The position numbers and the translations under genes are program-made. Source: Methylophaga sp. UBA2689 (GTDB lineage: Bacteria > Pseudomonadota > Gammaproteobacteria > Nitrosococcales > Methylophagaceae). Taken from it: a stretch of 47,689 nt of DNA. The DNA lies in the NCBI GenBank assembly GCA_002354555.1, contig DELT01000057.1, positions 27,532 to 75,220 of the forward strand. Reading direction: 5' to 3'. This document shows, in pieces, positions 39,952 through 47,689 of this stretch (position 1 is its first letter; every line of letters starts with the position of its first letter). A model generated the notes under the pieces. The model saw nothing but the letters and a program-made list of their open reading frames with translations. It made no database searches and was not told the origin of the DNA.

Positions 39952-40036
39952 GCCGGGGTGGCGGAACTGGTAGACGCGCCGGATTCAAAATCCGGTTTCT
40001 TCGGAAGTGCGAGTTCGATTCTCGCCCTCGGTACCA
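39952..40036 (+). tRNA. tRNA-Leu (anticodon CAA)
   Basis: The 85-base gene folds as a class II tRNA. The acceptor strands are GCCGGGG and CCTCGGT (two G-U pairs). The D arm is GCGGAACTGGTAGACGC, and the anticodon stem CCGGA/TCCGG has loop TTCAAAA, so the anticodon is CAA and it reads UUG. The variable arm is long, the T arm is GCGAGTTCGATTCTCGC, and A73 with CCA is encoded. Confidence 0.95.
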
Positions 40037-40077
40037 ACATTAAACCTTTTAAAATCAACAGGTTTATCCAGAATATT

Positions 40078-40110
40078 AAAGCCCCATCAGTTATGCTGTT
40101 GGGGCTTTTT
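40078..40110. terminator. Terminator between tRNA-Leu and the alcohol dehydrogenase gene
   Basis: Arms AAAGCCCCA and TGGGGCTTT, extended by CAG/CTG, are followed by a T-run on the plus strand. On the minus strand the tail is also T-rich, so it can end the convergent dehydrogenase transcript. Confidence 0.85.
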
Positions 40111-40152
40111 ATTTACCAGCATTAAACGTAAATTACCGCCTGTTTTGCTGTT

Positions 40153-41151
40153 TTAATGCTCAAGAACGATTCGATAACGTACATCCCCTTTTCGCAGTTT
40201 TTCAATCGCTTCATTTATCTGATCAAACGGATACATTTCCACAATTGGCTTGACCTGATGACGCTGAGCAAATTCCAGCATTATGCTGCAGGTTTGCATA
40301 CTGCCGGTATCTGACCCGGAAATACTTCTTTGCGCTTCTGTCAGGTTAAATACTCTAATATCCAATGGCTCCATCGTTGCACCGACAAAATGCAGCCGCC
40401 CTTTTGGTTTTAATTTACTCAGGTACAGATTCCAGTCCAATTTGACGTTGACTGTAGATAAAATCATATCGAATTTTCTGGGCAATTCTGCCATAACGAT
40501 GGCATCACGCGAATCCACACTGTAATGGGCCCCCATATCCAGAGCTTCCTGTAACTTTGCTGCGCTGGTAAATGCTGTGACTTCGCATCCCCAAGCTTGC
40601 AGAAATTGCAAAGCAATATGTCCTAGCCCGCCAATACCAATAACTGCCACCTTATCTGTTGGTTTGATATCAAATTGCACTAATGGATTGAAGACCGTCA
40701 ATCCACCACAAAGCAAAGGCCCGACAGATTTAAGATCAATAGCTTCAGGTAATCGAATAACACTATTGGCATTTGCCCTCACCTTATCGGCAAAACCACC
40801 ATGATGACCGACAATGGTAGGCGTAAGATCTGAACAGATATTTTCATCACCGTTATGGCATTGTTCGCAGGTTTCACAGTAATCGGCATACCAGCCCAAT
40901 CCGACAGTTTGTCCGACTTCCAGATTGGTTACAGCAGTGCCTACCTTGTTTATTGTTCCCACTACCTCATGTCCAGCTATGACCGGGTAAGAAGACATTC
41001 CCCAATCGTTGTCGATAATGCTTATATCGCTATGACAGATACCACAATATCGCACCTCAATCTCGACCTGATGCTCTCCTAACAGGCCAGGGTCATATTG
41101 ATATGGAGTAAGTTTGGCCCCCGGCTCCAACGCAGCAAAAGCATTAATCAT
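40153..41151 (-). CDS. Zinc-dependent alcohol/aldehyde dehydrogenase (YahK/cinnamyl-type)
   Basis: A 332-residue medium-chain dehydrogenase/reductase. Catalytic-zinc ligands are Cys36 (CGICHSD), His61 with Glu62 (GHEVVG) and Cys148 (LLCGG). Structural-zinc Cys92, 95, 98 and 106 are all present. The Rossmann motif GIGGLGHIA binds the nucleotide; no acidic residue follows strand 2 (TAFTSAAK), which suggests NADP. Homologues reduce aldehydes to alcohols. In a methylotroph it might detoxify aldehydes, but it is not a methanol dehydrogenase. AAGGA precedes the ATG. It stands alone. Confidence 0.87.
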   Translation of the reverse strand: MINAFAALEPGAKLTPYQYDPGLLGEHQVEIEVRYCGICHSDISIIDNDWGMSSYPVIAGHEVVGTINKVGTAVTNLEVGQTVGLGWYADYCETCEQCHNGDENICSDLTPTIVGHHGGFADKVRANANSVIRLPEAIDLKSVGPLLCGGLTVFNPLVQFDIKPTDKVAVIGIGGLGHIALQFLQAWGCEVTAFTSAAKLQEALDMGAHYSVDSRDAIVMAELPRKFDMILSTVNVKLDWNLYLSKLKPKGRLHFVGATMEPLDIRVFNLTEAQRSISGSDTGSMQTCSIMLEFAQRHQVKPIVEMYPFDQINEAIEKLRKGDVRYRIVLEH

Positions 41152-41541
41152 TTGATGTCCTTTTTACAGTCAGGATTTTTAATCAGGTGATGATTATAAG
41201 TCAGCCTGGTCAGGGCTTTTATCTCAAACTGGCAAACTTTCAATGAAATATGACAGCCCGGTGACAAATGCAGATTTCACTTTTTATCTTTTGCTTTATT
41301 CAATGTCTTTAATGAATTAAATATCACTCAGCTATCCGACATGACAGCGCGTTGGTTTCATCAGTGAATCTGGAGCCGAATTTTTCATAACCCCGGACAG
41401 ATGTTATAGTCAAACAAACACGATATATAGCTCTGTTTCAGACCTTAACGATAGGTTTTTCTATCCTCTTTTTGCCAATTTCCTTTTCTTTAATCTATGG
41501 ATTCCGGTTTATCTCCCTGTAGTGATCTTTGAGAGGTATTT
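41152..41541. other. 390-base intergenic region, largely unexplained
   Basis: Between the divergent dehydrogenase and lipoprotein genes I see no coding sequence. A small hairpin (GATAG/CTATC at 41450-41465) is followed by CTCTTTTT, which could be a weak terminator of a short RNA, but no matching promoter was recognised. It must contain the promoters of both flanking genes. Confidence 0.4.
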
Positions 41542-41880
41542 ATGCATAAGAAATTAACAGTTTCAGTATTTTTAGTCTGTTCGGCATGTAGTCAAAATGA
41601 TGCGGATCTGACATTTTCTGAGTTGGAAGCTGCTGGTTTTGAAAAACATCAACAACAGTATTTTCAACTAGTAGGAGCAACCAACGCATGGTCGGGCAGA
41701 TGGGCCAATGAAGATGTCGAAGTGTATACCTTTGATGATCCCGATCTCGAAAATGCACCTTTTTATGAATCCATAAAAACGGAGGATCCCGGATCGACTT
41801 GGGCAGATAAATGTGTCCACAAGAATGTTATTTTGCTTAGTAAGGGTTATCAAGCCTGTGACCGTCTATACGAGCTTTAG
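41542..41880 (+). CDS. Small predicted lipoprotein of unknown function
   Basis: A 112-residue protein, family not recognised. The N-terminus has Lys-Lys, a short hydrophobic core and a lipobox-like end VCSAC, so Cys16 could be lipidated, though Cys at -3 is atypical. The mature part is acidic and contains a second pair of Cys (about 91 and 105) that could form a disulfide. GAGAGG precedes the ATG, which supports a real gene. The following hypothetical gene is 45 bases downstream, so the pair may be cotranscribed. Confidence 0.65.
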   Translation: MHKKLTVSVFLVCSACSQNDADLTFSELEAAGFEKHQQQYFQLVGATNAWSGRWANEDVEVYTFDDPDLENAPFYESIKTEDPGSTWADKCVHKNVILLSKGYQACDRLYEL

Positions 41881-41925
41881 ACCAAAAGATGATGACGATA
41901 ATTTAATTTATGCGAGGAAATGGAA

Positions 41926-42201
41926 ATGAGTGAGGAGTATGCTCAACAACTAATTGATATTCTGCTTTTATCTGATAATTTTCAAATGGACTTAAAAGCC
42001 CTGATTTCCAAGGTGGCCCATTTTGATAGCGATTCAGCTGGGGATAAAAAATGTCTGGCAGAAGCCTTTGATATGTTAATGAGAGAAAAACTAATTTGGG
42101 TAGAAGATGAACCCATTTATGAAAGCCAAGGGGATCACGTGCACTTCAACGACATGAGTATTGGCTTAACGAAAACAGGATCCAACGCATCGATAAACTA
42201 A
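41926..42201 (+). CDS. Hypothetical acidic cytoplasmic protein
   Basis: A 91-residue acidic protein without signal peptide or transmembrane helix; the family is not recognised. Predicted to be largely helical in its first half (SEEYAQQLIDILLLSDN). The segment CLAEAFDMLMREKLIWVEDEP could be a small winged-helix-like or helical-bundle fold, which is only a guess. The ATG at 41926 has GAGG eight bases upstream; an ATG six bases earlier is too close to that site. It ends at a terminator hairpin shared with bfr. Confidence 0.55.
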   Translation: MSEEYAQQLIDILLLSDNFQMDLKALISKVAHFDSDSAGDKKCLAEAFDMLMREKLIWVEDEPIYESQGDHVHFNDMSIGLTKTGSNASIN

Positions 42202-42208
42202 TAAAATA

Positions 42209-42233
42209 GCCCTTCCAGATAAACTGAAAGGGC
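42209..42233. terminator. Bidirectional terminator between the hypothetical gene and bfr
   Basis: Arms GCCCTTCCAG and CTGAAAGGGC pair with one mismatch around ATAAA, 16 bases after the bfr stop. The T-rich tail is better on the minus strand (TATTTTATT), so it chiefly ends bfr. Confidence 0.7.
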
Positions 42234-42249
42234 TTCTGTAAACGAAATA

Positions 42250-42729
42250 TTATTCGGCTTCTTTAACAATCTGTGCCTGATGGAAGTTTTCAATACCCAT
42301 TTTATCGATCAGACTAAGTTGTGTTTCCAGCCAGTCCACATGATCTTCTTCTGATTCAAGAATATTCTTGAATAAATCACGGGTGACGTAGTCACCAATT
42401 TGTTCGCAATATTGGATACCTTCTTTCAGGTCTGGTATTGCATCAAGTTCTAATGAGAGATCGGCTTCCAGCATTTCACGCGTATTTTCACCGATACGTA
42501 ACGCACCCAGATCTTGTAGATTCGGTAACCCTTCCAAAAACAGCACACGTTCAGTCAGGGCATCAGCATGTTTCATTTCATCAATCGATTCATGATATTC
42601 ATGCTCATAGAGATTTTTCAGCCCCCAGTCCTTATACATTTTTGCATGCAGAAAATATTGGTTAATGGCTACCAGCTCATTACCTAATACTTTATTCAAC
42701 AGCTCAATAACTTTTTTATCACCTTTCAT
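42250..42729 (-). CDS. bfr: Bacterioferritin
   Basis: Bfr forms a 24-subunit iron-storage shell with heme at the subunit interface. In this 159-residue protein the ferroxidase ligands Glu18, Glu51, His54, Glu94, Glu127 and His130 and the heme ligand Met52 fall at the same positions as in E. coli. AGGGAGA precedes the ATG. The upstream region holds a Fur-like box (42818-42836) and a possible promoter (TTGACA at 42787-42792, ATAATC at 42764-42769, 17-base spacer). The partner ferredoxin bfd is 272 bases upstream on the same strand. Confidence 0.97.
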
Positions 42730-42817
42730 CGGATTCTCCCTTATTCCTGGATCTGATGAAGACGATTATCGTTCATAAAGAATAAATGTCAAAGATAAGT
42801 TATTGATATTAAAGGCA

Positions 42818-42836
42818 AATGATAACAATTATCATC
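42818..42836. promoter_or_regulatory. Fur-like box upstream of bfr
   Basis: AAATGATAACAATTATCAT closely resembles the 19-base Fur consensus. It lies about 26 bases upstream of the candidate -35 element rather than over the promoter, which would suit activation by Fur-iron better than repression. Confidence 0.65.
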
Positions 42837-43001
42837 TACATTCTGTTCCAGATGAGGTGAAAAAATAACAATTAGTAATTAAAGCTAAGTAAATTAGTGA
42901 CTTGTTTGGTTGGCAAAAAGCCACATATAATTTATGGAAATAAAACGTTGGAAGTTTCTAAATTGAATTGGAGTTGAGATGGTTCTACTATCTGCGCAGA
43001 G

Positions 43002-43220
43002 TTAACGTGAACCGTTCACAGTTTGTGCAACCAGAAAGCTATCCTGCTCAATGGACTGTGGGGCATGTTGCTGCAAAACACGATTCACTTTGAACTGGCA
43101 TTTACCACAGCAAGCTGTTGCTCCCGTGGTTTCACGGATTGCTTCAAGCGTGTCTGAACCAGCATCAATTGATGCTTTTACTTTATCGACATTCACGTTG
43201 TTGCAAACACAAACTATCAT
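43002..43220 (-). CDS. bfd: Bacterioferritin-associated ferredoxin
   Basis: Bfd is a [2Fe-2S] protein that binds Bfr and reduces its mineral to release iron. The 72-residue protein begins MIVCVCNNV; ligands Cys4, Cys6, Cys38 and Cys41 are at the E. coli positions (an extra Cys37 is present). A Fur-like box ends 32 bases upstream of the ATG, consistent with expression under iron limitation. It is transcribed toward bfr but separated by 272 bases. Confidence 0.94.
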   Translation of the reverse strand: MIVCVCNNVNVDKVKASIDAGSDTLEAIRETTGATACCGKCQFKVNRVLQQHAPQSIEQDSFLVAQTVNGSR

Positions 43221-43251
43221 GAAATAAACCCTATTGGTTAACCTTGTTGCT

Positions 43252-43270
43252 AATGATAATGATTGTTATT
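43252..43270. promoter_or_regulatory. Fur-like box upstream of bfd
   Basis: AATGATAATGATTGTTATT matches most positions of the Fur consensus and lies 32 bases from the bfd ATG, where it would overlap a promoter. This is the normal place for iron-dependent repression. Confidence 0.72.
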
Positions 43271-43296
43271 TATTAAGTCAAAGGTCTTTTGTTATT

Positions 43297-43317
43297 TTTT
43301 GGGAGAAATTCCCAAAA
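43297..43317. promoter_or_regulatory. Inverted repeat upstream of the OmpR-type regulator gene
   Basis: TTTTGGGA and TCCCAAAA are perfect arms around GAAAT, 64 bases upstream of the regulator ATG and also upstream of bfd. The core GGAGAAATTCCC resembles the dyad before the TonB receptor gene (4676-4692). Confidence 0.5.
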
Positions 43318-43380
43318 TTGTTACTTGCGATGCAGATGTTAACATCGTAACGTAGCTGTAACAGGCCTTAAGAGAACAGT

Positions 43381-44079
43381 ATGAAAGCAATATCAGCGAC
43401 GGTATTAATAGTTGAAGATCATCGGGATTTAGCTGCTAATGTAGGTGATTATCTGGAAGTTGGCGGCTTTACCGTTGATTTTGCTACAGATGGCATTACC
43501 GCATTACAGTTGTGTGAAGAACACCATTACGACGCAATCGTTTTGGATATCATGCTTCCTGGAATTGATGGCTTTGAAGTCTGCCGCAGATTACGTCAGG
43601 AAATGCATTTACATACCCCAATCATCATGCTGACCGCCCGTGACACCATTAATGACAAGGTGAACGGTTTTGATTTGGGTGCTGATGATTATTTGATTAA
43701 ACCTTTTGAAATGCGTGAGCTCGAAGCCAGGCTGATTGCAATGATACGACGTCAACGGGGAGAACTCGAAGGTGGAAAATTAACGGTAGCCGATCTCACC
43801 TATGACCTCGATACCATGCGTGTTATGCGCGGCGATAAGCTTATCAAGCTGTCTCCGATAACTCTGCACATCTTGCGGATCCTGATGCGCGAATCGCCAA
43901 AAATTGTCAGTCGTGAACGTCTGGAAGCTGAAGTGTGGGGTGATGATGCACCCGATAGTGATACGCTACGCAGTCATTTATATAACCTGCGAAAAAGTCT
44001 GGATAAACCCTTTCAAAATCAATTAATGCATACCTTACCAGGTGTGGGTTATAAACTTTGCAGAGAAGAAGACCTTTAA
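43381..44079 (+). CDS. OmpR/PhoB-family response regulator
   Basis: A 232-residue regulator. Receiver domain: acidic Glu12-Asp13 (VLIVEDHRDL), phospho-acceptor Asp56 (AIVLDIMLPGIDG) and switch Lys in GADDYLIKPFE. The winged-helix Trans_reg_C domain follows from about 135 (KLSPITLHILRILM, LEAEVWGDDAPDSDTLRSHLYNLRK). The cognate kinase is probably the gene at 44092-45393, which is convergent with a 12-base gap instead of downstream in the same operon. The target is unknown; an inverted repeat in its own promoter region may be an autoregulatory site. Confidence 0.92.
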   Translation: MKAISATVLIVEDHRDLAANVGDYLEVGGFTVDFATDGITALQLCEEHHYDAIVLDIMLPGIDGFEVCRRLRQEMHLHTPIIMLTARDTINDKVNGFDLGADDYLIKPFEMRELEARLIAMIRRQRGELEGGKLTVADLTYDLDTMRVMRGDKLIKLSPITLHILRILMRESPKIVSRERLEAEVWGDDAPDSDTLRSHLYNLRKSLDKPFQNQLMHTLPGVGYKLCREEDL

Positions 44080-44091
44080 AGATTATGTAGA

Positions 44092-45393
44092 TTAACGGCT
44101 GCGAAACTGTGCTTTGGGAAAGTGCACACTGACCTCAGTCCCCTCGCCCATTTTGCTGGATAAACGCAGATTCCATTCATAACGATTACATAACCTTTTA
44201 ACAATAGTCATACCAATACCATAGCCCGTAACCTGTTGTTTTTCATCTGCACGGAAAAATGGTTTAAAGACTTTCTGCATTTGATCCCGATCCATACCAA
44301 TTCCGCTATCGGCAACCGAAAATCCGTCCGACCGGATAGAGACCGTAATATTGCCCCGCAGAGTGTAATTAAAGGCATTACGCAGTAGATTACCAATAAG
44401 AATCGGTAACACTCGTTCAGCAGCCAGTACGACTAAAATACCCGACTCTTCCACATTTACCGTGATCGGTTTATCGTGATGAATCATTCGCAGATTATCC
44501 AGTTCAGCAGCGATCAAATCATTGACGGTGATTTCCCTTAAAGGTAAAGCCTCTACCTGCTCTCTGGCTAATAACAACAACGTTTCAATCAGCGATTCCA
44601 TATCCGTCAGCGTACGATACATACGATTCATCTCGGTCACTGCCTGATCGCCGTATTTACGTTCAACCAATTCCAATGCACCACGAATTACAGCTATTGG
44701 AGTACGTAATTCATGACTGACGTCGCGGGTAAAATTTCGTTCACGTTCAACAAAATTTTCCAGACGGTTCGTAAATTCATCCAATGCCCGGACCAGACTG
44801 GAAACCTCGTCATCCGGAATGCTTCTCAAATCATGCAGATCCAATTGGGGAAAATTGCCTTCCCGAAAGTCCACTTCATTGACTGCCCGTGAAAGTTTCA
44901 TTATAGGTGAAACGGCCTTATGTGACTGTCGATAGGCAATCCAGGCCAACAGATAAAGCACTACCAGAACCATCGCCAGAGGTAATAGACCAAAGACTAA
45001 AGCCAGTCGGGAAACCTTCACTTCATCAAATATCAGATAGAGACGACGATCACCTTTATCCTCAACATAGACAATGGGCTGCTGGCCCGCCAGCTCAGCC
45101 CTTTTCAAACCTGGCCCCAGCTTCTGTAAGGCTGGTGGCAACTGGGAATAATTATCCCGTTCGGCCATGTAAGCTTTAAGGTTCATGGTGTTTGGTAATG
45201 GAAACGCTGGATCTTCTGAACGCATATCCCAGAAATGCTGGGCTTCACCCTCCAGAGCAGCACGCACCAATACATCTTCGAGAGTTGCCTTTGCAGCATA
45301 AATTCCTGCTATAGCCACCAGACTGATTAATGCAATTTGTATTAAAAAGACTTTAACCAGCTTGGCATGAAGATTGGTATTGGATTTAGCCAT
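44092..45393 (-). CDS. Sensor histidine kinase at the end of the lipid operon
   Basis: A 433-residue membrane kinase. Helix 1 (about 13-34), a periplasmic domain of about 95 residues, helix 2 (130-153), and a HAMP-like linker come first. The HisKA domain has His227 (FTRDVSHELRTPIAVIRG). The ATPase domain has an N-box (IGNLLRNAFNYT), DSGIGM and GYGIGMTIVKRL. The fold resembles QseC/PhoQ-type kinases. It begins four bases after the methyltransferase stop and converges on the OmpR-type regulator, its likely partner. Sensing of membrane-lipid state is an inference from operon context. Confidence 0.9.
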   Translation of the reverse strand: MAKSNTNLHAKLVKVFLIQIALISLVAIAGIYAAKATLEDVLVRAALEGEAQHFWDMRSEDPAFPLPNTMNLKAYMAERDNYSQLPPALQKLGPGLKRAELAGQQPIVYVEDKGDRRLYLIFDEVKVSRLALVFGLLPLAMVLVVLYLLAWIAYRQSHKAVSPIMKLSRAVNEVDFREGNFPQLDLHDLRSIPDDEVSSLVRALDEFTNRLENFVERERNFTRDVSHELRTPIAVIRGALELVERKYGDQAVTEMNRMYRTLTDMESLIETLLLLAREQVEALPLREITVNDLIAAELDNLRMIHHDKPITVNVEESGILVVLAAERVLPILIGNLLRNAFNYTLRGNITVSIRSDGFSVADSGIGMDRDQMQKVFKPFFRADEKQQVTGYGIGMTIVKRLCNRYEWNLRLSSKMGEGTEVSVHFPKAQFRSR

Positions 45394-45397
45394 CGAA

Positions 45398-46432
45398 TCA
45401 GTTTACTCGCTTGGAGAATAAATAATGCGTGACCAACCACTCGGTTCCATCGCGATAGCCAAATAATTCAGCACAGGCCATAAAGAATAACCGCCAGCGT
45501 TGTAGCCAGATAGTACCCTCACCTTTACCGTAGGTTTGATCAAACAATGCTTTAATCTGACTGGCATTTTTATCCGTATTTTCCAGCCAGGCTTCAGCTG
45601 TTTTCTGATAATGCTGACCATTGACCAACCATTGCTTTTCAATCTGCAAAGCCTCCTGAAAATGCAATAACGTGTCTGCTGAAGGCATCAATCCACCGGT
45701 AAAAAAGTAGCGTCCCATCCAGTTATCATCGCCTTCAGTTTCGAAAGGATAAACGACATTACGATGACAGAAAATATGCACAAAAAGCTTACCGTCAGAC
45801 TTAAGCCAGCAACTTACATTGTTAAGCAACTGCTGATAATTACGCATATGTTCGAACATTTCTATCGAGACAATTCGATCATACTGCGTGTTCAGTTCGA
45901 GTTTATTGACATCGCAGGTAATGATATGAATATTAGTTAATCCGCGGGCAAACGCCTGCTTTTCAATGTACTCACGTTGCGAATTGGAATTTGATACAGC
46001 AGTGATTCGTGAATACGGAAATCGTTCAGCCATATACAGAGTCAGTGAGCCCCAACCGCAGCCCAGTTCAAGAATATCCTGCCCGTTTTTGAAATCTCCC
46101 CGTTCGAGATAAATATCCAACATGGCCTTTTCAGCCTGATCCAGCGATATGGTGTAATCATCCCACCAGCAACCGCTGTATTTGAGATGTTTGCCTAATG
46201 ACAGTTGATAAAATTCAGCGGGTACTTCGTAGTGTTGTTCATTAGCCGCCTGGGTTTCTATCGCAATCGGGCTGTTTCGTAGCATTTCCATGCATTGATT
46301 TTTGATTTCACTGGCGGCTTCCGGATCATAGGCATTTTCATCTTGCAGGCGTTGCTTAAGCAGCCTGCGAATGCCAACTCTTACTAGCATGTCAGGCACC
46401 AGTCCTTTTTCAGCGATAGTGATCAGACTCAT
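45398..46432 (-). CDS. Cyclopropane-fatty-acid-synthase-like SAM methyltransferase
   Basis: A 344-residue class I methyltransferase of the CFA synthase family, shorter than classical Cfa (about 380). The SAM loop is ILELGCGWGSLTLYMA, followed by ITAVSNSNSQREYI, IVSIEMFEHM and RYFFTGGLMPS. HYEVPAEFYQLSLG and YSGCWWDD match the substrate-entry region of the coclaurine methyltransferase-like branch. It could methylate or cyclopropanate unsaturated phospholipid chains. GGAGG precedes the ATG. It overlaps the DUF1295 gene by four bases and is followed after four bases by the kinase gene. Confidence 0.83.
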   Translation of the reverse strand: MSLITIAEKGLVPDMLVRVGIRRLLKQRLQDENAYDPEAASEIKNQCMEMLRNSPIAIETQAANEQHYEVPAEFYQLSLGKHLKYSGCWWDDYTISLDQAEKAMLDIYLERGDFKNGQDILELGCGWGSLTLYMAERFPYSRITAVSNSNSQREYIEKQAFARGLTNIHIITCDVNKLELNTQYDRIVSIEMFEHMRNYQQLLNNVSCWLKSDGKLFVHIFCHRNVVYPFETEGDDNWMGRYFFTGGLMPSADTLLHFQEALQIEKQWLVNGQHYQKTAEAWLENTDKNASQIKALFDQTYGKGEGTIWLQRWRLFFMACAELFGYRDGTEWLVTHYLFSKRVN

Positions 46433-47193
46433 ATTTTTTTCCTCCAGGGAATAAATGCACTGGTTGTTTGTTGATAACGACGATATTTATCCCCACGACT
46501 GCGAATCGCGTGTTGTTCGGTGTAGGGTATGCCGGTAATGAAATACAGAAATAACAACATCACTAATGGCGCTAGCCAGAGCCACGCTGCGTGTTCGATG
46601 CCAATCGCCATTAAGGGATAGCTAAACCAATGTAACCACTCGAAAAAGTAATTCGGATGTCTGGAATAATTCCACAAGCCTGTTTCGCAGACTTCACCTT
46701 TATTTTTCGGATCAGCTTTGAAATTGGCTAATTGCTTATCCGCAACAGTGACGCCGGTAATGGCAATAATGGCGACAGCTAGACCGGCATATTGAGCTAG
46801 CCCTAAAGATTCAATCTGCCCCTGATTAATGAACCAGACTGGAATAGCAAATCCCCACGCCAATAAAGCCTGAAACTGGAAAAAGAAAAAGTGATAAAAA
46901 TTAGTTTTGCCCCCCCAGTACTGCCTCAGATATTTATAACGTCCATCTTCATCTTCTCCTAACACTCTTTGAGCAAGGTGTGTTCCCAAACGCAAATACC
47001 AAAGCAGCATGATGCCAGATGCCATAATGCTCAGTGGAAAATAGCCCTCACTGGTCAGCAAATGAAAGAAAGCCAGAAAACTTAATGAAAAAGCCCACAA
47101 CACGTCGACAATTCCAGCATTTTTACTGCGAATCTGCCAAAACCAACCGCACAGCATTATTAAAGATACAATGCAAAGACTAAACCACAGCAT
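46429..47193 (-). CDS. DUF1295 membrane protein (steroid-reductase/ICMT-like fold)
   Basis: A 254-residue integral membrane protein with about seven predicted helices. The DUF1295 signature is clear: GLWNYSRHPNYFFEWLHWFSY near residue 185, VDVLWAFSL near the N-terminus and PYTEQHAIRSRGDKYRRYQ near the C-terminus. Relatives include steroid 5-alpha reductases and isoprenylcysteine methyltransferases, so a NADPH-dependent lipid reductase or a lipid-modifying role is plausible. It overlaps the DUF2878 gene by 14 bases and the methyltransferase gene by four. Confidence 0.87.
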   Translation of the reverse strand: MLWFSLCIVSLIMLCGWFWQIRSKNAGIVDVLWAFSLSFLAFFHLLTSEGYFPLSIMASGIMLLWYLRLGTHLAQRVLGEDEDGRYKYLRQYWGGKTNFYHFFFFQFQALLAWGFAIPVWFINQGQIESLGLAQYAGLAVAIIAITGVTVADKQLANFKADPKNKGEVCETGLWNYSRHPNYFFEWLHWFSYPLMAIGIEHAAWLWLAPLVMLLFLYFITGIPYTEQHAIRSRGDKYRRYQQTTSAFIPWRKKI

Positions 47194-47689
47194 GTTGTTT
47201 TCCTGATTCTTGATTGCGCCAATAATTCGCCAATGTCATTAATAATGGAATTGCCAATCCCCAGCTAATGGCAAGTACTACGATTAATATCTCTGGTTGC
47301 AGCCAGTCTAGTGCACCAAGACGACTACCTGCATAGTAGGAAACCGGGCTAGCAATAGCAGAAAATATTCCTGCCATCACACGACGTTTTAATAACCATG
47401 AAAGTGAGTGGTTAAGCGTTAACGCAAAATTGATCCATAAACACCATATCCACCAGGGTGCAATCGGTTCAATAGTTTGAGCTTGATAAGCCATTAAATT
47501 CCAGGCTGACCAGCTCGAATCCAGCACGACACCGATTAAAATTGCCGCCAGCACCAGTTTGTAATCAGTCTGTTTCCAGCGATAAAAACGAAAATGAAAG
47601 ATCAAAAGGGCGACGGTAAAAATAACGGCCGGTGAATTCAACTCCGCGGCCCCGCTTAATACACAGACAAACCAACCGATTTGAAACAG
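47180..47689 (-). CDS. DUF2878 membrane protein, truncated by the window edge
   Basis: A polytopic membrane protein of unknown function. The frame stays open from the stop at 47180 to the right edge (170 codons). The residues before the first TTG (LFQIGWFVCVLSGAAE) fit the usual DUF2878 N-terminus, so the true start lies just outside. About five hydrophobic segments are visible, and the pattern DSSWSAWNLMAY, APWWIWCLWINFALTLNHSL is typical. DUF2878 genes are often found beside DUF1295 and CFA-synthase genes, as here, which ties it to membrane-lipid modification. Confidence 0.82.
   Translation of the reverse strand: MFQIGWFVCVLSGAAELNSPAVIFTVALLIFHFRFYRWKQTDYKLVLAAILIGVVLDSSWSAWNLMAYQAQTIEPIAPWWIWCLWINFALTLNHSLSWLLKRRVMAGIFSAIASPVSYYAGSRLGALDWLQPEILIVVLAISWGLAIPLLMTLANYWRNQESGKQHAVV

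Follow-up and report, generated by a model that had tools for sequence, protein, structure and literature searches.

Furan fatty acids are reported as membrane antioxidants in microbes, plants and fish, and in Rhodobacter (Cereibacter) sphaeroides and Rhodopseudomonas palustris they are made by UfaM, a CFA-family methylase, together with UfaD and UfaO, a DUF1365 protein, which yield a monomethyl furan fatty acid to which FufM adds a second methyl group (PMC7380195). The control described there for these lipids in bacteria is ChrR (PMC7380195). In this work, we analyzed a stretch of 47,689 nucleotides from Methylophaga sp. UBA2689 (contig DELT01000057.1, positions 27,532 to 75,220; hereafter the window), whose right end holds a lipid-modification operon that closes with the gene of a sensor histidine kinase (HK) and faces the gene of an OmpR-family response regulator (RR). 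This locus shares with the Rhodobacter and Rhodopseudomonas genes a CFA-family methylase, an FAD desaturase-like protein, a DUF1365 protein and a second S-adenosylmethionine (SAM) methyltransferase. Unlike them, it has these genes gathered into a single operon, which also contains a desaturase, DUF2878, DUF1295 and the HK, and two-component control is proposed in place of sigma-E/ChrR, for a product that is predicted from the genes. We consider it likely that a dedicated two-component system activates here a furan fatty acid regulon, in which the operon would make a methyl- or dimethyl-furan fatty acid.

Other regulators accompany related clusters elsewhere. Those of Ensifer (L190), Burkholderia (L192) and Salinivibrio (L193) share with the system studied here the FAD protein, DUF1365 and a CFA-family or coclaurine-N-methyltransferase (CNMT)-like methylase, as well as, in part, DUF1295, DUF2878, a lipocalin and a chalcone-isomerase (CHI). 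The Ensifer cluster, for which a CNMT-like enzyme and no CFA-family methylase was listed, lies beside a sigma factor and ChrR, the Burkholderia cluster beside a sigma/anti-sigma pair, and that of Salinivibrio, which has no CNMT-like gene, beside MerR with a photolyase, whereas the window has HK and RR. In Cupriavidus, much of the enzyme set is found beside TetR, and the blue-light response of Vibrio cholerae involves a related cluster system (PMC5241685). The pathway thus comes with several kinds of regulation, the HK-linked form among them. In DesKR of Bacillus subtilis, the kinase sits in the membrane and its regulator governs a fatty acid desaturase; the window pair shares this logic, but it is of the HisKA and Trans_reg_C type and not of the HisKA_3/NarL type of DesKR. 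Among the matches listed from the open-access literature (subscription papers were outside the scope), no account of two-component control over furan fatty acid or DUF1365 genes was recognised.

Re-derivation of the open reading frames returned the five genes of the original prediction with the same coordinates and spacing. The RR (43381-44079, plus strand; PF00072 108 bits, PF00486 65 bits) and the HK (44092-45393, minus strand; HisKA 50 bits, HATPase_c 72 bits) are convergent, with a 12-base spacer (44080-44091) between their stop codons. As had been suggested, the RR is the plausible output of the HK. Upstream of the HK, and on the same strand, are a CNMT-like SAM methyltransferase (45398-46432; CMAS 138 bits), whose stop codon is separated from the HK start by a 4-base gap, a DUF1295 membrane protein resembling steroid 5-alpha-reductases (46429-47193; PF06966 221 bits, PF02544 33 bits), which overlaps the methyltransferase by 4 bases, and a DUF2878 membrane protein (47180-47689; PF11086 124 bits) with a 14-base overlap with DUF1295. 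The tight minus-strand run with its 14-, 4- and 4-base junctions is thus as originally described. The 5′ end of DUF2878 is lost in a 148-N assembly gap (L002 7222-7369) that forms the window edge and cuts the operon. Past the gap, where a look for further lipid genes such as DUF1365 or amine-oxidase-like proteins had been proposed, four more genes of this strand touch or overlap each other (L002 7370-11561). They encode a CFA-family methylase, a DUF1365 protein, an FAD protein resembling amine oxidases and a fatty acid desaturase, and a SnoaL-like gene and a CHI-like gene are divergent from them. By layout, this would be an eight-gene operon, presumably co-transcribed: desaturase, FAD protein, DUF1365, CFA-family methylase, DUF2878, DUF1295, CNMT-like methyltransferase and HK. 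A promoter of its own for the HK had been named as a point that would separate it from the lipid genes; no minus-strand promoter-like match was found in 43300-46500, which is weak evidence only. No structured RNA was detected in 40000-47689 at gathering thresholds.

As predicted from its genes, the product of this operon is probably a furan fatty acid with one or two methyl groups, which would reside in membrane phospholipids. The DUF1365 protein matches PF07103, the UfaO-type domain, with 275 bits, a resemblance at the family level only, and the adjoining FAD protein matches the broad family PF01593 with 75 bits. The CFA-family methylase upstream of DUF2878 reaches 260 bits on CMAS, and Ser and Gln stand in it at the positions that are Cys and His in the aligned 6bqc, a cyclopropane synthase; the replacements recur among its seed rows, Ser in 19 of 20 (one row being truncated) and Gln in all 20. 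We take these Cys and His positions to be the bicarbonate-site residues of the Escherichia coli enzyme. The methyltransferase beside the HK had been called CFA-synthase-like. It proved to be mainly CNMT-like, since its residues 3-341 align with the coclaurine N-methyltransferase 6gkv at 281.6 bits, compared with 102.8 bits for the best CFA synthase, and it is a candidate FufM for the second furan methylation. Arabidopsis AT4G33110 is annotated as CNMT-like and would connect FufM to this enzyme. FufM and AT4G33110 are 38% identical (PMC10940516). In Chlamydomonas, SAK1 is required if singlet oxygen is to induce the DUF1365 and DUF1295 genes as well as CFA1 and CFA2, the last of which also carries the name coclaurine N-methyltransferase (PMC4067076). 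DUF1295 and the CNMT-like methyltransferase are joined in one open frame in a locus of the same genus (L030:8158-9996) and in one of another family (L051:7520-9382). This fusion, seen in two genomes of different families, suggests a joint step of DUF1295 and the second methylase, unless a stop codon was lost to misassembly. A plain cyclopropane operon is not favoured, given the CNMT-like nature of the second methyltransferase and the replaced residues of the first. Activities comparable to UfaD, UfaO, UfaM and FufM are assigned here by family resemblance. The chemistry, which the original prediction had left unsettled between several modifications, is in this way better constrained, with the furan fatty acid pathway as the favoured one.

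Two TTCAC-N6-TTCAC direct repeats, pointing in opposite directions, are located in the region that separates the desaturase from the divergent SnoaL/CHI genes. Spacer length served as the control: the N6 repeat gave 34 matches in the upstream regions, with all 17 genus loci represented, and any other spacer from 0 to 13 gave at most three; away from promoters in the genus loci, an N7 spacer gave 10 matches. In linked loci from other families (19, picked from two locus sets) the N6 repeat was found upstream 11 times, in 10 loci, and other spacers at most once. Among lipid loci lacking the HK, one of 13 had the exact repeat, and 27 other HK loci yielded two matches (L054, among the 27, has DUF2878 nearby). 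A genus-wide scan showed the repeat to outnumber its reversed control in most genomes among the matches listed, with at least 15 compared with at least 4 in the genome of the window itself. Reading of 23 sites, two of them inside genes, in chosen regions led to an unlinked lipocalin (PF08212) that is present in 20 of 24 genus genomes and has the exact repeat just upstream in all 20. On an Acinetobacter plasmid, a lipocalin frame that belongs to the cluster itself is closely preceded by a repeat. The lipocalin region of one Acinetobacter plasmid (L049:5025-5641) is read in two overlapping frames, and the same gene is a single frame in L194. The regulon may be wider than the operon and the lipocalin. 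In two genus genomes, genes of WG-repeat proteins (PF14903; L205:2568 and L209:2837) have an intergenic repeat 64-69 bp upstream, and these proteins are possible further members.

The spacing between the repeat and a putative -10 element is also conserved. A -10-like TAnnnT starts 11 bp after the repeat, an offset chosen by inspection, in 18 of 18 desaturase promoters, and xAnnnT is found at that distance in all 20 lipocalin promoters and, among 15 hand-picked sites from other families, in eight (six of them TAnnnT). Over the remaining offsets between 6 and 17, xAnnnT was counted at most 5, 4 and 2 times in the desaturase, lipocalin and other-family sets, respectively. A repeat that takes the place of the -35 box is the expected layout of a PhoB-type activator. 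In the mechanism that we favour, the HK would sense an envelope signal through its small periplasmic domain and phosphorylate the convergently encoded RR, which would then bind TTCAC-N6-TTCAC in place of the -35 box, in a PhoB-like class II activation, and turn on the operon, the divergent SnoaL/CHI-like genes and the unlinked lipocalin. As the HK gene closes the very operon that the pair would control, the level of the HK should rise on activation. Both the binding of the RR to the repeat and the direction of regulation are what we infer from sequence comparison.

In the AlphaFold2 model of the HK (mean predicted local distance difference test, pLDDT, of 82, and about 90 across most of the sensor part), the predicted sensor (residues ~46-126; 45016-45258, minus strand) appears as a small alpha/beta periplasmic domain. 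It carries a P-x-T-x-N motif (residues 67-71; 45181-45195) that is invariant in the 28 kinases of our alignment, as is the phospho-acceptor His (residue 227; 44713-44715) in the SHELRTP box. A comparison of the sensor fold with the PDB gave no match at E ≤ 0.001, and the Cache-like matches that appeared from E 0.04 upward are a weak hint only. Possible signals are membrane fluidity, lipid oxidation and light-derived oxidants. The original proposal of fluidity gained no support from this analysis; singlet oxygen or light are published inputs for the same enzyme families elsewhere (PMC4067076, PMC7380195, PMC5241685). We put forward tentatively, and with clearly less confidence than the regulon itself, a more specific reading in which an HK family with a small Cache-like sensor and the P-x-T-x-N motif would read the lipid state of the envelope, as oxidised or unsaturated acyl chains or as furan fatty acids, and would drive furan synthesis through a cre-tag-type operator, together with lipocalin, CHI-like and SnoaL handling proteins and amplification of the HK itself, as a dedicated lipid surveillance of gammaproteobacteria.

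Within the genus, the HK was found in 19 of 23 genomes in a first search, and an orthologue in 20 of 24 in a later one. The full gene set with the convergent RR was present in 17 of the 19 HK loci, and the other two were cut by contig ends, a recurrence beyond chance. The original claim of a membrane-lipid modification operon with its own HK is supported; L030, with DUF1295 in frame with the methyltransferase, is among the 17. Four genomes complement this picture. G004, without an HK match, has the operon and the repeats, and its contig ends just after the CNMT-like gene, while G016 and G019 are without HK, DUF1365 and lipocalin alike. G006, which has neither HK nor lipocalin, has a different FAD-DUF1365-CFA cluster with no repeat. 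That cluster (L235:5275-12028; 33-39% identity) is preceded by a frame that, from its sequence, resembles methionine sulfoxide reductase and by a distantly related RR-HK pair (RR 35% and HK 23% identity); a two-component system may here have become paired with this pathway independently. Two sister-genus genomes without the HK had FAD-DUF1365-CFA loci with no repeat at the cluster promoters (L237 has one unrelated exact match).

A class survey covered 369 genomes, 54 of which had an HK match at E ≤ 1e-50. At a threshold of 375 bits, set after a gap from 379 to 351 bits had been seen, there were 24 HKs in 23 genomes, including that of the window and one from a same-genus genome. DUF1365 or DUF2878 was within 12 kb of 17 of these 24 HKs and of none of the 43 weaker ones. 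DUF1365 was present in 21 of the 23 genomes and in 114 of all 369 (Fisher p 7e-10, without correction for relatedness); the remaining two have DUF2878 beside the HK, so all 23 carry one or the other. The finding that would have refuted the original prediction, kinase homologues mostly unlinked from lipid genes, was not obtained for close homologues. On a quick tree of 62 HKs, linkage clustered with 6 changes, compared with a shuffled mean of 21, and none of 500 shuffles was as low. The arrangement recurs in other families with rearranged gene orders, and the original statement that no such cluster with a membrane sensor was known has to give way to its presence in Acinetobacter plasmids, in part in Alloalcanivorax, and in other gammaproteobacteria. 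The HK was found in seven Acinetobacter plasmid records, six of which were typed as mobilizable and two of which were read in detail; Acinetobacter sp. ANC 3781 is another carrier. The Alloalcanivorax marinus locus (L090, 21 kb) contains DUF2878-DUF1295-CNMT-like-HK with RR, CHI and SnoaL, and the FAD-DUF1365-CFA part is not in the locus. A scan of genome contigs with the HK alignment, which used a generic H-box pattern and gave mostly other kinases, showed the FAD gene in 3 of 80 loci among the matches listed, and other cluster genes in one more, L090. No lipid genes were seen in the loci of HK relatives from Xanthomonas and Stenotrophomonas.

The identity of the regulator that reads the repeat deserves separate attention. 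CreBC/BlrAB presumably consist, like the window pair, of an OmpR-type RR and a HisKA kinase. Their operator is also the same, as TTCAC-N6-TTCAC equals the cre/blr tag TTCACnnnnnnTTCAC of CreB/BlrA (PMC3660660). Unlike CreBC, the pair described here has lipid genes as predicted targets, and no CreD was found in the 24 same-genus genomes, nor did any RR in them exceed the CreB cut-off. In spite of the shared operator, identity with CreBC was rejected, since the window RR reached 142 of the 273 bits of the curated cut-off for CreB and the HK 97.5 of the 356 bits for CreC, and CreD is absent from the genus. The pattern LRSHxYxLR, which we take to be the recognition helix of the RR, is kept in 16 of the 19 linked RRs shown.

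Several observations weigh against the regulon that we propose. Orthology to UfaM, UfaD, UfaO and FufM is argued from families and published identities. Nine of the 19 linked loci outside the genus have no exact repeat in their upstream windows, and neither do the seven lipid loci of genomes in which the HK is unlinked, two of these having a one-mismatch match (in one of the seven genomes, G041, the HK scores only 351 bits). The result for these seven speaks against an operator of universal occurrence. The HK-less locus with the repeat is L182, where it lies at L182:11526, 279 bp upstream of the FAD gene. The exact matches in the genome of the window are explained only for the operon pair and the lipocalin site. 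Repeats that face SnoaL/CHI have no -10 element at offset 11 (0 of 18). By eye, a site for autoregulation of the RR is not conserved in the genus: one-mismatch sites are seen at the RR in part of it, and none is recognisable in the clade of the window. L067 and L069 carry the repeat and a recognition stretch other than LRSHxYxLR, and L051 has no RR within its 20 kb. The choice of the 11-bp offset and of the 375-bit threshold after inspection counts on the same side. Finally, an HK of at least 375 bits is within 12 kb in just 15 of the 114 DUF1365 genomes and, therefore, most DUF1365 clusters would be regulated otherwise.

Three other explanations were considered. The one that we regard as the most serious, with perhaps a minor share of the probability, is that the two-component system controls the operon and the product is not a furan, being instead a cyclopropane or methyl-branched fatty acid, or some other lipid on which DUF1295 and the CNMT-like enzyme act. 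The CMAS-family scores of both methylases would fit this, and no step for DUF2878 or DUF1295 was seen in the furan literature consulted. Nevertheless, DUF1365 and a UfaD-like protein adjoin the methylase and the CNMT-like enzyme, neither the Cys nor the His of the cyclopropane synthase is kept in the CFA-family methylase, and much of the set lies beside sigma/ChrR in Ensifer and sigma/anti-sigma in Burkholderia, ChrR being a known type of furan regulator.

Less probable still is that another OmpR-type, CreB-like regulator reads the TTCAC repeats and the linked HK/RR does something else. The identity of the repeat with the cre/blr tag argues for it, as does the fact that other OmpR-type RRs of the genus, which could bind the repeat, outscore this RR on the CreB model (about 200 compared with 141 bits), a further point to be set against our proposal. 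However, neither CreD nor a CreB above the cut-off was found in any of the 24 same-genus genomes; G006 keeps other RRs (one of 199 bits) and is without HK and lipocalin, and its lipid locus has no repeat; and across families the presence of the repeat tracks the linked HK family. Because repeat presence follows its family, the linked RR is favoured as the reader. That the HK is a mere passenger, kept beside the lipid genes by conserved order and without a part in their regulation, is very improbable. Bacterial gene order can persist within a genus by common descent, but here other families and Acinetobacter plasmids show the linkage again with the genes in altered orders, co-occurrence holds even where the genes are unlinked, and the operator evidence (the repeat at the operon and the lipocalin, with the 11-bp -10 spacing) connects them. 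On balance, activation of a furan fatty acid regulon by the HK/RR pair remains our preferred explanation.

Beyond the RR, the window contains bacterioferritin (42250-42729) and, adjoining it, a short minus-strand frame starting with MIVCVCNNVN (~43018-43280), which we take to resemble bacterioferritin-associated ferredoxin, with a Fur-box-like sequence, AATGATAATGATTGTTATT, upstream. In eight loci of the same genus (L038-L045), a third CFA-like gene, 36% identical to the CFA-family gene of the operon, adjoins bacterioferritin.

Through its defined operator and the small regulon predicted for it, which includes an unlinked lipocalin, an HK/RR pair tied to this pathway would provide a direct handle on what bacteria sense when they make furan fatty acids, and likewise on the roles of the DUF1295, DUF2878, lipocalin and CHI-like proteins.

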